The notes beneath the pieces were generated by a model. The model worked only from the letters and a program-made list of their open reading frames with translations, was not told where the DNA came from and searched no databases. Of a stretch of DNA of 64,000 bases, positions 2,386 to 44,603 are shown piece after piece. This stretch comes from Viridothelium virens. Its lineage: Eukaryota; Ascomycota; Dothideomycetes; Trypetheliales; Trypetheliaceae. The translations under genes were made by a program, and so were the position numbers. Numbering within the stretch: position 1 is the first letter of the stretch; each line of letters opens with the position of its first letter. The stretch spans positions 1-64,000 of the forward strand of contig ML991874.1 in the NCBI GenBank assembly GCA_010094025.1, written 5' to 3'.

Positions 2386-3313
2386 GATTGGGTGAGATAT
2401 GGAAGAGGGGAGAATATGTGTCGGATAATAGAGGGAAGGAATAGGGAAGTAGTAAGTAGAAAATGGAAGTTAAAGATATAGAAATTGCAGAAATTAATGA
2501 ATTAAGAGACGGCCAGGACTCCGGAGAGCTCGTGGTATTGCCGGTTCTGGCACGTCATTTTGCCGAGGCATACGGAGTACCAGGTACTCTGTCTAAAGTG
2601 CTAGCTGACGCCCGACGATCCTGCCAAAGCTAAGTGCTACTTAACTGAATGGATAGCTTGCCTGGGTACTCCGTACCTAATTTTTGTCAATAATTTTTTT
2701 TTCCAAATCTAAAACGTCTAAAGGCTACCTACAAGCTTGTATCTGAAGATGTTTTGGCTAGTATCTTAGAATGTAATCCTACTTTCTCAAGAAATCATTT
2801 GTCGTTGAGACACCATGGATACGACGTTCTGTGGCTGCAAAAGTTTGTAGCACTCTAAGGCTCTGCCCGTCCATCGTGAAGCTATATTTGATCATGACCC
2901 ACCAAGTCTTTTGAGATAGGAACTATGCGAGCATCTATTGAAGATCACAGAGCAGCTACTCAAGGGAAATTATTATTGGGCTAAGCTTCTTTACTGGTAG
3001 ATAGTACCAGCCTTTAAGAGGGAATAGCACTATCAGACAATGGGTGTCAACCGCATCAGTATTGGTTGTTCACTTTCTGGTTCAATGATTGAGGTACGCA
3101 CGCGGCGTCGGCGGTGAACAGCACAGTAGTCTACAATGCAAAGGCCAGGCTGGATAAGCAGTCTGTATGATATCATCTCCATGCAAATTAAGACTAAAGC
3201 CCCAATACTCCGTATATCGTCCGAAACATCCACTGAGTTTTCATCCAATAAATTGAAGAGATGAAAAGTAATACTGTATATAATCGGAAGCACTAATAAA
3301 CACCCTTTGTTGT
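2386..3313. other. Intergenic region with TACTCCGTA motifs
   Basis: Upstream of the acyl-CoA dehydrogenase and before the tRNA gene. I see no gene. The stretch holds three copies of the self-reverse-complement motif pair TACGGAGTA/TACTCCGTA (2571, 2667, 3206) and an A/T run near 2690. The 86-codon frame at 3033-3293 on the minus strand lacks any recognisable feature. Confidence 0.5.
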
Positions 3314-3350
3314 GACGTGGTGGCGGAGCGGTTAACGCGATAGACTAGAA

Positions 3351-3365
3351 AGCCGTTTCCTTCTG
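3351..3365 (+). other. Canonical-site tRNA intron (15 nt)
   Basis: It lies between position 37 (A3350) and position 38 (A3366) of the tRNA-Ser, where eukaryotic tRNA introns are cut by the tRNA splicing endonuclease. The A at either border makes the exact cut ambiguous by one base. The insert contains TTCT, which can pair with the anticodon bases as in known pre-tRNA anticodon-intron helices. Confidence 0.7.
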
Positions 3366-3380
3366 ATCTATTTCCTTCGG

Positions 3381-3444
3381 GTGAGTTATTCTCATGGATA
3401 GCCGATGTGATGAGATCAGATCAAATGGAATTAACAATCTGTAG
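3381..3444 (+). other. 64-nt insert in tRNA variable arm with spliceosomal-intron borders
   Basis: It starts GTGAGT, ends TAG, and has TTAAC about 12 nt before the end. The same three signals occur in protein-gene introns of this window (for example the DOP1 introns at 41985-42038 and 37609-37659), and 64 nt is within the 41-124 nt range seen here. Precise removal restores the variable-arm stem TTCC/GGGA and the two linker bases GC. Whether the spliceosome, the tRNA endonuclease or nothing removes it cannot be told from sequence. Confidence 0.6.
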
Positions 3445-3487
3445 GAGCACAGGTTCGAATCCTGTCCACGTCGATCGAATGTGTGTA

Positions 3488-3498
3488 TTTTTTTTTTT
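3488..3498 (+). terminator. Pol III terminator (T11) of the tRNA-Ser gene
   Basis: An uninterrupted run of eleven T residues begins 15 nt after the tRNA discriminator base, the expected place and form for RNA polymerase III termination. Confidence 0.85.
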
Positions 3499-4759
3499 CC
3501 AGTCACTCTTAGATGAGTAATCGCGATACAAGCACCCAAGTACGTTTGGAACTCAGGCTCCGTGGTTCTTCCAATGAACACTTGTGTCATGGACTGAACC
3601 TCAGCATGCATCCGTGCATGTCTGACCATCGGCTGAACCCCGGATGGTGTCGGAGCTAACTCCGTATGAGCTAGCATGCGGCCGGACCTCGGCGGACATC
3701 GGAGATTACTCCACTTCGACTGGAGGTTCTTCCTTTCCCCGCAGCTACGCACTGCCAAATCACTGTATCTACCTAGGCAGATTTTAGTTCATCATCAATA
3801 CATCATTTACTGCTGTTCTGACAACTTGAGTTGTACCTTGACCGGCAGTGTAAAAATCTCGGCCAGTCGTCATCTTCACGTTCGAAATGTCCGTACTTTG
3901 ACGAAGTGACAGGAAATGTCTACGTAAGATATGATTTTGATATCTATCAATATTACTACATAATTATCGCTCACAAGTTCGCGACCCCAAGGGGTCTGGT
4001 CGATTCATAGCAATATTGCGCTGTAGATCAAAATCAATCGTTTCATTCTCTCAGCGCTTGCACGAGGCATAGGTACCGAACGATTTCTCACCTTAGATTT
4101 TCTCATTCAATTGATGAGACTCACTTAAGTGAAAGCCAGTAGGTGGATCCTTTGTAGCCTTGGACAAATTAGCCAGCATTCGTCAGTAGCCTCCGACGAG
4201 GAATCTAGAATGACAAGGAATTGTGCGTGATCTTGATACGGACGAGAGGAGAAAGAGACGTTCGGGAAAAAAGCAATGAAAAGAGAACAAGCTAAAAATT
4301 ATCATGATCACATTCCTGCTCCATAGGAACCAGATGCCGACCTGCCTGCCATCTGAGGTACCGCGGAACCATAATTTCTGCATCATGCTTACATGTGATG
4401 TAGCAAAGAGTGAGGTGATATCGTTGTCTGACTTATGAAAATGTGGAATGAAAATAACTCGAAAGCCAACTACATCTCGTTGTTTAAGCCTCTGATCCTG
4501 TGTAGGATGAAGAAACCCCGCCTCCGAAGAATAGCATAATTGTCGTGGTAAGGAATTTAGACGATGACACAACTCTGGAGTTTCCTGCGACGCTTCTTCC
4601 AATCCGACGAAAAATCTCACTAGGAGACCACTCAAACTAGTTAGATCTGGATACTTTGTGAGCCGCTTCGGATCGTCGCAACTGGCGAGCATACTTCAGT
4701 CCAAAATTCTCGAGTCACTCCAAGAATCCGTATAGTCCCCAGTTCTCTCTCAATTCAGC
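3499..4759. other. Intergenic region, no supported gene
   Basis: About 1.26 kb between the tRNA terminator and the D-serine dehydratase. The longest frame (169 codons, minus, 4183-4692) shows no domain, no Kozak-like context and no conserved pattern, and it covers the presumed promoter of the downstream gene. I therefore do not call it. Confidence 0.45.
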
Positions 4760-42501: not shown

Positions 42502-44603
42502 ATGGCTGACACAGCCAACATTGATACGGCAGAAACCGCCGAAGGCATCAGTACCAAAGACTTCGACAAGCGTGCTGGATCTGAACACTCTGAATCTGGA
42601 ACACGAGAGGTACCAATTGCTTCACTCCAATCTAGGGAATCTTCACCTCCGCCTCTCCCAGCTCGCCCGCGCCAACTCTCGAGACCTGATCGATCCCCCT
42701 TCGGCTCTTATTCACGGCCAAGCAGTGCCGGTGGTCCCAGATTGGCCTCGAGGGCGACCACAGCAGTGTCCCGCGCTGATATTCAGACCAAGTCTTATGG
42801 TGATGAACGTCCTGGGGGTCACTTGTTGCCGGGGAGCAGAGGTGTCTCGAGACAACAGAGCTTTAGCAACCTTGGCCGGTTTGTGAGCAATAGTAAAAGC
42901 GATGGTGGCGACAGTGCAAGCATCAGAAGCTACATTCCAACTCTCGAGGCAAGCGGAGATGTAGAAAGCCTGCTTGGAGAGGTATTGTCGGATTATGCGA
43001 GTCCTGCTTGGAAGAAGCTGGATGCATGTGCTCTTGAGCAAGCGGGCTATTTCCATGACGTGACCTATGAAGTGGACGTGCTGAACGATATTTTTGAGCG
43101 AGAGTTCGACGAGCTAGAACCGTCCCGACCTGATGGAAGCAACGAGGGTAAGCTTTTAGTGAAAATTTGGCTCTACTTTGACTAACTTGGTCATAGAAGC
43201 TTTGATGGCACAATTTCGTTCCAAATTAAAGCACTTCCTGATTTTATCATCGGCTGGGAAGCCCATTTATAGTCGACACGGAGATGATCAGCTCGTGACA
43301 AACTACATTGGAGTTGTTCAAACCATCATTTCGTTCTATCAAGGAGCAAAAGATGGCCTCAAAGGGTTTACTGCCGGCGACGTGCGATTCGTGATCATGT
43401 CGAAAGGGCCTTTGAACCTTGTTGCAATCAGCCAGCTTGGTGAAAGCGACGCTCAATTGCGTGCACAACTAGAGGCCTTGTACATGCAGATTCTCTCTAC
43501 ACTGACCTTACCGAACATGGAACGGATGTTTTCTAATCGCCCGTCAATAGATCTTCGAAGACCATTACAGGGGACGGAAACTTTGCTCTCTGCTCTTGCA
43601 GATGGTTTCACAAGAGGGTCGCCGTCCTCGCTACTTTCAGCCCTAGAGTGTCTCAGACTTCGCAAGACTCATCGTCAAGTGATCAACAATTCCATGCTCA
43701 AGGTTAGGTCGCAAAACCTTCTGTATGGATTAATTGTTGCTGGAGGCAAGCTTGTCAGTGTTATACGTCCTAAGAAACACTCATTACATCCAGGCGATTT
43801 GGAATTGATCTTCAATATGCTATTTGAGGCCGAAGGTATCAAAGCAGGCGGTGGCGAGAACTGGATTCCTATTTGCCTCCCTGGCTTCAACAATACAGGA
43901 TTCCTTTACATGTACGTTAGCTTCCTTAGCGCAACTCAACCAAATCATGAAGTTGTCGAACGGCCATCTTCACGAGACGAGCGAGAAGAAGAAATTGCCA
44001 TTCTCTTCATCAGCCCGAATAAAGAAGGCTTTTTTGAACTGAGGCAAATGAAAGATGACTTAGTAGAAGTAAGCATTCGTTCCCGAGATCCTCATAACAG
44101 GCTAAAATCGTCAAAGCAACTACAGGAAAACGGCGGAATGCAGAGTATTCGATCTGCCGTTGTGAAAGGACGGCCGTCATGTGTGGATATTGCGCCTGGT
44201 ACTGTCGCGAGGCATTTTCTTTACAAATCTAAGGGCAACGTCCAGTTCGCAATGCCATCGTACGAGCCAAATTTCAATACGACGCTCTCAAGGAGACGGT
44301 ATGTCCGCTTGCTCCCGTCATAAGCAGTCTACTCACAAATTTGGAAATCCACTATTCAGATTACTATCGCTTTATCACATTCTTCATGCCAGTGTCCATG
44401 TCAAGAATGCCCACTTGAAAGTGCAACACTGTATTAGTCGCGATTCGATCTCGCTTGCTTGGATCACTCCAATGTTCGAACTCTTTTGTGTGGCAGATCC
44501 ATCAGCAAGCCGTAATGCTTTGGCACAAGCAGCCAACAAAATAATTCAATGGATCCGCCGAGAAGAAGAACGTGTGTTCATCATCGGAGGCGCCGTCTTC
44601 TGA
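42502..44603 (+). CDS. MON1: Vacuolar fusion protein Mon1 (Rab7 GEF subunit)
   Basis: Three exons (42502-43147, 43197-44298, 44360-44603), introns of 49 and 61 nt, 663 residues. Residues 1-165 are disordered Ser/Pro/Arg. The Mon1 core begins near 215 with [23 protein letters not shown], the first longin domain, followed by [14 protein letters not shown] and [20 protein letters not shown]. The second and third longin parts include [21 protein letters not shown] and [18 protein letters not shown]. The end [15 protein letters not shown] is complete. With Ccz1 it forms the exchange factor that loads Ypt7/Rab7 with GTP at late endosomes and vacuoles. Confidence 0.94.

Follow-up and report, generated by a model that had tools for sequence, protein, structure and literature searches.

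What removes the second of two inserts that interrupt a nuclear tRNA-Ser(AGA) gene of Viridothelium virens, a fungus of the order Trypetheliales? The gene lies at positions 3314-3473, plus strand, of the stretch of DNA analysed here (the window: 64,000 nucleotides (nt), bases 1-64000 of a 64,019-bp contig), and carries one insert at the 37/38 site of canonical tRNA introns and another, of 64 nt, in its variable arm. The earlier note on this DNA had left three options for the latter: a spliceosomal intron in a gene transcribed by RNA polymerase III (Pol III), a second intron tolerated by the tRNA endonuclease, or a dead gene copy. Reading nuclear tRNA genes across the genome, we counted 34 inserts of the same type, beginning with GT and ending with AG; they are spread over 28 of 45 genes, and the only initiator tRNA-Met gene found is one of the 28. 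Because of this recurrence the first option is strongly favoured: judged from sequence, the 64-nt insert is very probably (probability about 0.88) a U2-type spliceosomal intron inside a tRNA-Ser(AGA) gene that is nuclear and functional, and belongs to a group of 34 or more such introns. The parts of the gene and its flanks, in window coordinates, are as follows.

3277..3283, plus strand: TATA-like box TATATAA, its first base 37 nt before the 5' end of the tRNA, probably an upstream element for Pol III
3314..3473, plus strand: tRNA-Ser(AGA) gene, interrupted twice (read directly, and by ARAGORN on the spliced form)
3314..3350, plus strand: exon 1, with the acceptor 5' strand, the D arm and the 5' half of the anticodon arm including anticodon AGA
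3321..3331, plus strand: A box TGGCGGAGCGG, internal Pol III promoter (read directly against the general consensus; inside the 18-mer 3321-3338 matched by an A-box pattern)
3351..3365, plus strand: 15-nt insert at the canonical 37/38 site, of the tRNA-endonuclease type
3366..3380, plus strand: exon 2, with the 3' half of the anticodon arm and the start of the long variable arm
3381..3444, plus strand: 64-nt spliceosomal-type intron in the variable arm, GTGAGT...TTAAC...CTGTAG; predicted exon junction after its removal, TTTCCTTCGG^GAGC
3431..3435, plus strand: putative branch site TTAAC, with 10 intron nt after the predicted branch A (3434)
3445..3473, plus strand: exon 3, with the end of the variable arm, the T arm, the acceptor 3' strand and discriminator G
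3452..3462, plus strand: B box GGTTCGAATCC, unbroken in this gene (B-box pattern match)
3488..3498, plus strand: T11 Pol III terminator, beginning 14 nt past the gene end

With both inserts taken out, ARAGORN names the remaining 81 nt tRNA-Ser(aga), and the product has the features of a class II tRNA-Ser: a cloverleaf, a long variable arm, discriminator G and anticodon AGA. Direct reading bears out what had been noticed before, namely that the arms are intact (acceptor GACGTGG/CCACGTC+G, D arm, anticodon arm ATAGA-CTAGAA(A)-TCTAT, T arm ACAGG-TTCGAAT-CCTGT), that the T11 terminator follows and that the 15-nt insert occupies the 37/38 site; TATAW matches occur 37 and 35 nt upstream of the gene. 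The 13-nt variable arm of the spliced form is identical to the uninterrupted arm TTCCTTCGGGAGC of another Ser gene, L093, which is Ser(GCT) by its 37/38 reading yet could be a second Ser(AGA) gene with a 20-nt insert at 33/34. The claim that removal of the 64 nt recovers the long variable arm therefore stands in so far as a normal class II tRNA-Ser with the L093 arm results, but structure alone leaves the boundary unfixed. Eukaryotic tRNA-Ser requires a long variable arm, and we place the boundary on this ground together with the GT..AG and branch signals and the identical unbroken arm in L093; it is convincing only in the genome-wide context.

Some further observations were made on this locus. 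The 15-nt insert and the 15 bases that follow it (3351-3380 together) are identical at 11 of 15 positions, as though the 37/38 intron had arisen by a small tandem duplication. Two weak repeats occur in positions 3250-3550, a direct one of 12 nt and an inverted one of 19 nt, and the unspliced RNA folds somewhat better than shuffled sequences (z -2.2); we draw no inference from either.

The genome (30.7 Mb, 175 contigs) was searched with Rfam, with B-box patterns with and without T runs and with two A-box patterns, and promising DNA was read. The Rfam search scored 63 of 927 candidates, the B-box searches covered 100 of 374, 100 of 105 and 100 of 142 matches, and DNA was read for some matches only, for example 9 of 30 and 11 of 26 for the two A-box patterns and six from one B-box pattern. 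No clear new gene was present among the nine read from the first A-box pattern, and three (L123-L125) came from the second. Genes were read with a parser that removes up to two introns starting with GT (or GC) and ending with AG, plus one 37/38 intron, and that demands A, C or G after the GT, or else G at position +5 for GTT and GC starts. It scored at least 44 at 36 of 68 B-box sites, and the other 32 were dropped. Before counting, we excluded contig C129 (34.6 kb), whose clustered tRNAs were taken as mitochondrial, a Leu-like, unparsed site (L148) and eight B-box-like sites for which no tRNA parse was accepted and Rfam gave no family at gathering score (L070, L106, L107, L110, L112, L113, L117 and L119). 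At least 45 nuclear tRNA genes emerged; for 33 the reading of the parser was kept, and the remaining 12 were placed by eye. The genes found are few and mostly one per anticodon, with Asp, Gly GCC, Lys CTT and perhaps His and Ser GCT occurring twice; the second His gene, L023, is uncertain, and the 37/38 boundary of Ala(TGC) is probably off (scores of 71 versus 87, with no name given to the spliced form by ARAGORN). This incomplete catalogue lacks Leu TAG and TAA, Phe, Tyr, Val TAC and Ile AAT.

The GT..AG inserts (19 placed by the parser, 15 by eye) lie in the D arm (15), the anticodon arm (7), the T arm (5), at the 25/26-26/27 junction (4), in the acceptor stem (2) and, in the window gene alone, in the variable arm. 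None of the 34 occupies the 37/38 position, which the separate 15-nt insert of the window gene does. Introns at 37/38, of 7-39 nt, are present in 31 of the 45 genes, 17 of which also carry GT..AG inserts; counting all intron types, 15 genes have two introns and four have three. In both Thr(TGT) and Arg(TCG) the acceptor stem is interrupted after its nucleotide 5, and the T arm carries another intron. The Arg(TCT) gene L082 (G000 C6:522500-523200, minus strand), read by eye, has two GT..AG introns, of which one falls between T34 and C35 and so breaks the anticodon, and a 7-nt 37/38 intron; the first reading of the parser at this site was TGT with a 59-nt 37/38 intron.

The inserts resemble spliceosomal introns well beyond their ends. 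GT and AG are found in 34 of 34 by selection, although GT..AG was also preferred in scans that did not require such ends (see below). G at +5 is present in 31 of the 34, or in 28 of 31 once the GTT starts, for which the parser required it, are left out, and a purine at +3 in 30 of 34; the 5' site of the window intron is GTGAGT. A YTRAY branch motif with its A at most 26 nt from the 3' end was found in 29 of the 34 inserts (2000 shuffles: mean 8.0, maximum 19) and the stronger CTRAY form in 23 (shuffles: mean 3.4, maximum 11), the TTAAC of the window intron being of the YTRAY type. The 19 introns placed by the parser behave alike, with +5 G in 18 and YTRAY in 16 (shuffles: mean 4.6, maximum 11). 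Insert lengths are 46-64 nt, with one of 99, and seven mRNA introns of the same genome measure 47-61 nt: three from the Mon1 gene (window 43178-44323; mapped exactly from the annotated protein, which aligns without mismatch), three from chaperonin genes (placed by eye) and one from an acyl-CoA dehydrogenase gene (between mapped exons). The inserts thus have the ends, 5' consensus, branch site and length of U2-type introns, whereas none of the 31 introns at 37/38 can be read as GT..AG.

GT..AG ends were also recovered in scans that left the ends open. At 69 B-box sites we allowed any deletion of 40-70 nt that improved the tRNA score, with all 256 pairs of end dinucleotides permitted. Fifteen sites qualified; GT..AG was within the best set of deletions at nine of them, the next best pairs at two, and GT..AG passed the threshold at 14 of the 15, compared with five for the next pair. 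In a second scan, of single deletions with lengths restricted to +/-6 nt of the annotated ones, GT..AG was among the best for 26 of the 34 inserts and for none of the 31 introns at 37/38. ARAGORN gave the expected anticodon for 27 of the 28 genes in spliced form and for two of the 28 when they were left unspliced; the window gene is one of the two, and there ARAGORN assumed an 86-nt intron. The unspliced initiator Met gene was called Ile.

Several results weigh against a spliceosomal nature of the inserts. Placement by eye accounts for 12 of the 45 genes and 15 of the 34 introns, and splice signals may have guided it; for Ser CGA, Arg TCT and Gly TCC the reading by eye was chosen over a first parser reading of equal or higher score. 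The seven mRNA introns, a small sample with four placed by eye, have YTRAY in only four and +5 G likewise in four. In the end-pair scan the best set lacked GT..AG at 6 of 15 sites, and the single-deletion scan was confined to near-annotated lengths; eight of the 34 annotated introns were not structurally best in it, seven losing by 1-3 points and the eighth belonging to a broken Lys copy. The introns of the duplicated Asp genes are still alike (38/46, 83%; shuffles 59%, maximum 78%), and spliceosomal-type introns break the B box in the DNA of five genes (L035, L040, L123, L124 and L125), leaving the promoter of these genes unexplained. For the window gene itself, 76 different deletions tie for best in the blind single-deletion scan, and the parser gives 56 to the two-intron reading, with four points already deducted for the additional intron, and 55 to a one-intron reading.

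This last result bears on a competing account, in which a single 37/38 intron of about 86-87 nt is cut out by the tRNA endonuclease and yields a tRNA-Ser(AGA) with a short variable loop. The default ARAGORN search of the window, inserts present, returned no tRNA, and an Rfam search of the window gave nothing at gathering scores (tRNA at 18.5 bits in a permissive search); once introns are allowed, ARAGORN reads the unspliced gene in just this way, with an 86-nt intron. The resulting variable loop would be of 6 nt, however, where a eukaryotic tRNA-Ser needs its long arm; each of the four other Ser genes read has a long arm, in one case identical to the spliced junction, and nothing would account for the remaining 33 inserts, of which 26 lie outside the anticodon arm. 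Despite the near-equal structure score we consider this account very improbable and reject it, for the missing long arm and the recurrence of the insert type. Equally small is the chance we give to an account in which the tRNA splicing endonuclease cuts out the extra inserts at bulge-helix-bulge motifs, after the fashion of Cyanidioschyzon merolae or crenarchaea. That tRNA introns can be ectopic and multiple and be processed in this manner is indeed known (PMC4090602 and PMC3978253, in the sections accessible to us), but such a mechanism does not predict GT..AG ends, +5 G or branch motifs, and a complete 4-bp central helix, the strict form of the motif, occurs at none of the 34 boundaries (0.73 expected from reshuffled partners, so that zero fits chance too). 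With no signal for it in the strict central helix, we rejected bulge-helix-bulge removal; the suggestion that the endonuclease tolerates a second intron finds no support there either. A spread of near-identical copies in the manner of introners was likewise rejected, old events aside: a same-strand BLAST of the 34 introns against each other (E 0.01) links only the two Asp duplicates, and a 301-nt piece of the window holding the 64-nt intron matches only itself in the genome.

A further account takes the split genes for dead copies, with intact tRNA genes elsewhere. A damaged T arm in one Lys(CTT) gene and the absence of some anticodons (Phe, Tyr, Ile AAT and others) from the incomplete catalogue speak for this, and the rest of the evidence speaks against it. 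After splicing, the acceptor stems of the 45 genes show no mismatch in 315 pairs, although the parser favoured pairing, and the T stems show three mismatches in 225 pairs, all in one Lys copy as judged by pair comparison. Genes present in duplicate have kept their exons (65/72 aligned positions for Asp, 66/71 for Gly, 66/69 for Lys), while the introns of the Gly and Lys pairs, at 69% and 67% identity, are near the shuffle level (61-62%). Double compensatory changes occur in acceptor stems whose strands are parted by introns (one in Gly, two in Asp), with further ones in the Asp T stem (one) and the Lys anticodon stem (one; unsplit by a GT..AG intron). A TATA-like box lies 20-50 nt upstream, mostly at 34-38 nt, in 32 of the 43 genes with enough sequence (shuffles: mean 8.5, maximum 16), including two genes whose first exon consists of five nucleotides, and a run of T5 or longer follows within 40 nt downstream in 44 of 45; boxes and T runs fit the assigned gene ends. 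Eukaryotic initiators are expected to have an A1-U72 pair and an ATCGAAA T-loop, and the spliced initiator tRNA-Met has both. Unsplit copies were sought for two of the 28 split genes: the spliced initiator sequence matched only its own locus, in two pieces, and spliced Ser(AGA), for which a check for further genes had been proposed, matched only the window gene and part of L093, so that no unsplit copy of either turned up in the assembly. With intact arms, an upstream TATA-like box and a terminator, the window gene is a poor fit to the dead copy that the earlier note had allowed for, and as a general account dead copies are rejected as the least credible of these alternatives, one Lys copy excepted. 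That copy, L041 (the second Lys(CTT) copy, G000 C63:130600-130950), is probably a pseudogene or an assembly error; its D-arm intron has the same position as in the other Lys(CTT) copy, and its T arm is shortened and damaged (GCGGGTTACCCGC).

That these genes are transcribed, that the spliceosome removes the inserts and that it acts before the endonuclease we infer from these features. Pol III would transcribe the split gene with the help of the TATA-like box about 35-37 nt upstream, the spliceosome would then take out the GT..AG introns so that the tRNA body can fold, and tRNA endonuclease and ligase would finally excise the 37/38 intron. The yeast tRNA endonuclease measures the tRNA fold, and this fold could not form while the D, T or acceptor arm holds an intron; for this reason the spliceosome is placed first. 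The upstream TATA box is also a candidate means by which Pol III might find the five genes with a split B box. Extended to the genome, it is highly probable that a large share of the nuclear tRNAs, initiator Met among them, is made via the spliceosome, with introns in every arm, apparently one within an anticodon (Arg TCT, by eye) and five in the B box. The supply of tRNA would then depend on two successive splicing machines, and some Pol III promoters would be split or shifted upstream.

Two further kinds of B-box site may belong to Pol III as well. Three of the sites dropped above (L070, L106 and L119) have in common an upstream hairpin-like segment, CTTCGG plus CTGAACTTTT, and perhaps represent an unannotated Pol III RNA or a repeat. 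Another, L107 (G000 C70:149650-150350, minus strand), has A-box-like and B-box-like sequences about 170 nt apart and a T run, and is possibly an undescribed Pol III gene.

How do these introns compare with those already described? Canonical 37/38 introns, removed by endonuclease and ligase, coexist with them in V. virens, but the inserts sit elsewhere, are longer (46-99 versus 7-39 nt) and have GT..AG ends and branch signals. Several introns per tRNA gene, in many arms, are also known from C. merolae, the Guillardia theta nucleomorph and archaea; in the portions of PMC4090602, PMC3978253 and PMC4033280 at our disposal, however, the ectopic introns of C. merolae and archaea are attributed to the splicing endonuclease and the bulge-helix-bulge motif, tRNA splicing in the G. 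theta nucleomorph is described as not understood, with many introns lacking a defined motif, and nowhere in those portions are tRNA introns attributed to the spliceosome. Reviews, as far as their text was available, place nuclear tRNA introns at 37/38, with algal exceptions, and assign tRNA splicing to protein enzymes rather than the spliceosome. Closer parallels come from other noncoding RNAs of fungi. The nuclear ribosomal DNA of lichen fungi (Cladonia grayi and others) carries spliceosomal introns, according to the parts of PMC8527467 available; these too are ectopic and of the mRNA type, sit in a noncoding RNA of another polymerase and occur in lichen-forming ascomycetes (the one transferred to yeast has 57 bp), although the host is rRNA, made by RNA polymerase I, and the word tRNA is absent from the main text of that paper. 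Trypetheliales are themselves treated as lichenised in the accessible part of PMC8809443. In fission yeast, the U6 small nuclear RNA shows a spliceosomal intron in a fungal Pol III transcript, albeit in one small nuclear RNA gene and not a set of tRNA genes (PMC10484740, in its available text); by the title of a study cited there, this intron carries a B-box match, a parallel to the split-B-box genes of V. virens. The V. virens U6 gene (L105:414-513, G000 C38) matches the whole U6 model over 100 nt at 81.5 bits, leaving no room for an intron; it is followed by a T run and then by the B-box-like sequence GTTCGAGTC.

A literature search whose coverage left out most subscription papers returned no report of spliceosomal introns in tRNA genes. 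What is new is thus a known type of intron, present genome-wide in a class of genes thought free of such introns. For annotation this is a warning, as ARAGORN is right for only two of 28 such precursors and takes the initiator Met gene for Ile, and the non-canonical intron search of tRNAscan-SE 2.0 is described, in the part of its account available to us, for the archaeal model. Four further Trypetheliales assemblies are public (GCA_021030915.1, GCA_021030935.1, GCA_021031095.1 and GCA_021030925.1; PMC8809443, same part), so that a direct test of how far the phenomenon extends among other lichen fungi is possible. If the reading is true, the spliceosome would act on many Pol III transcripts, how Pol III locates genes with a split B box would become a question, and the spliceosome would be needed for most of the tRNA genes read (28/45), joining translation in this fungus to mRNA splicing.
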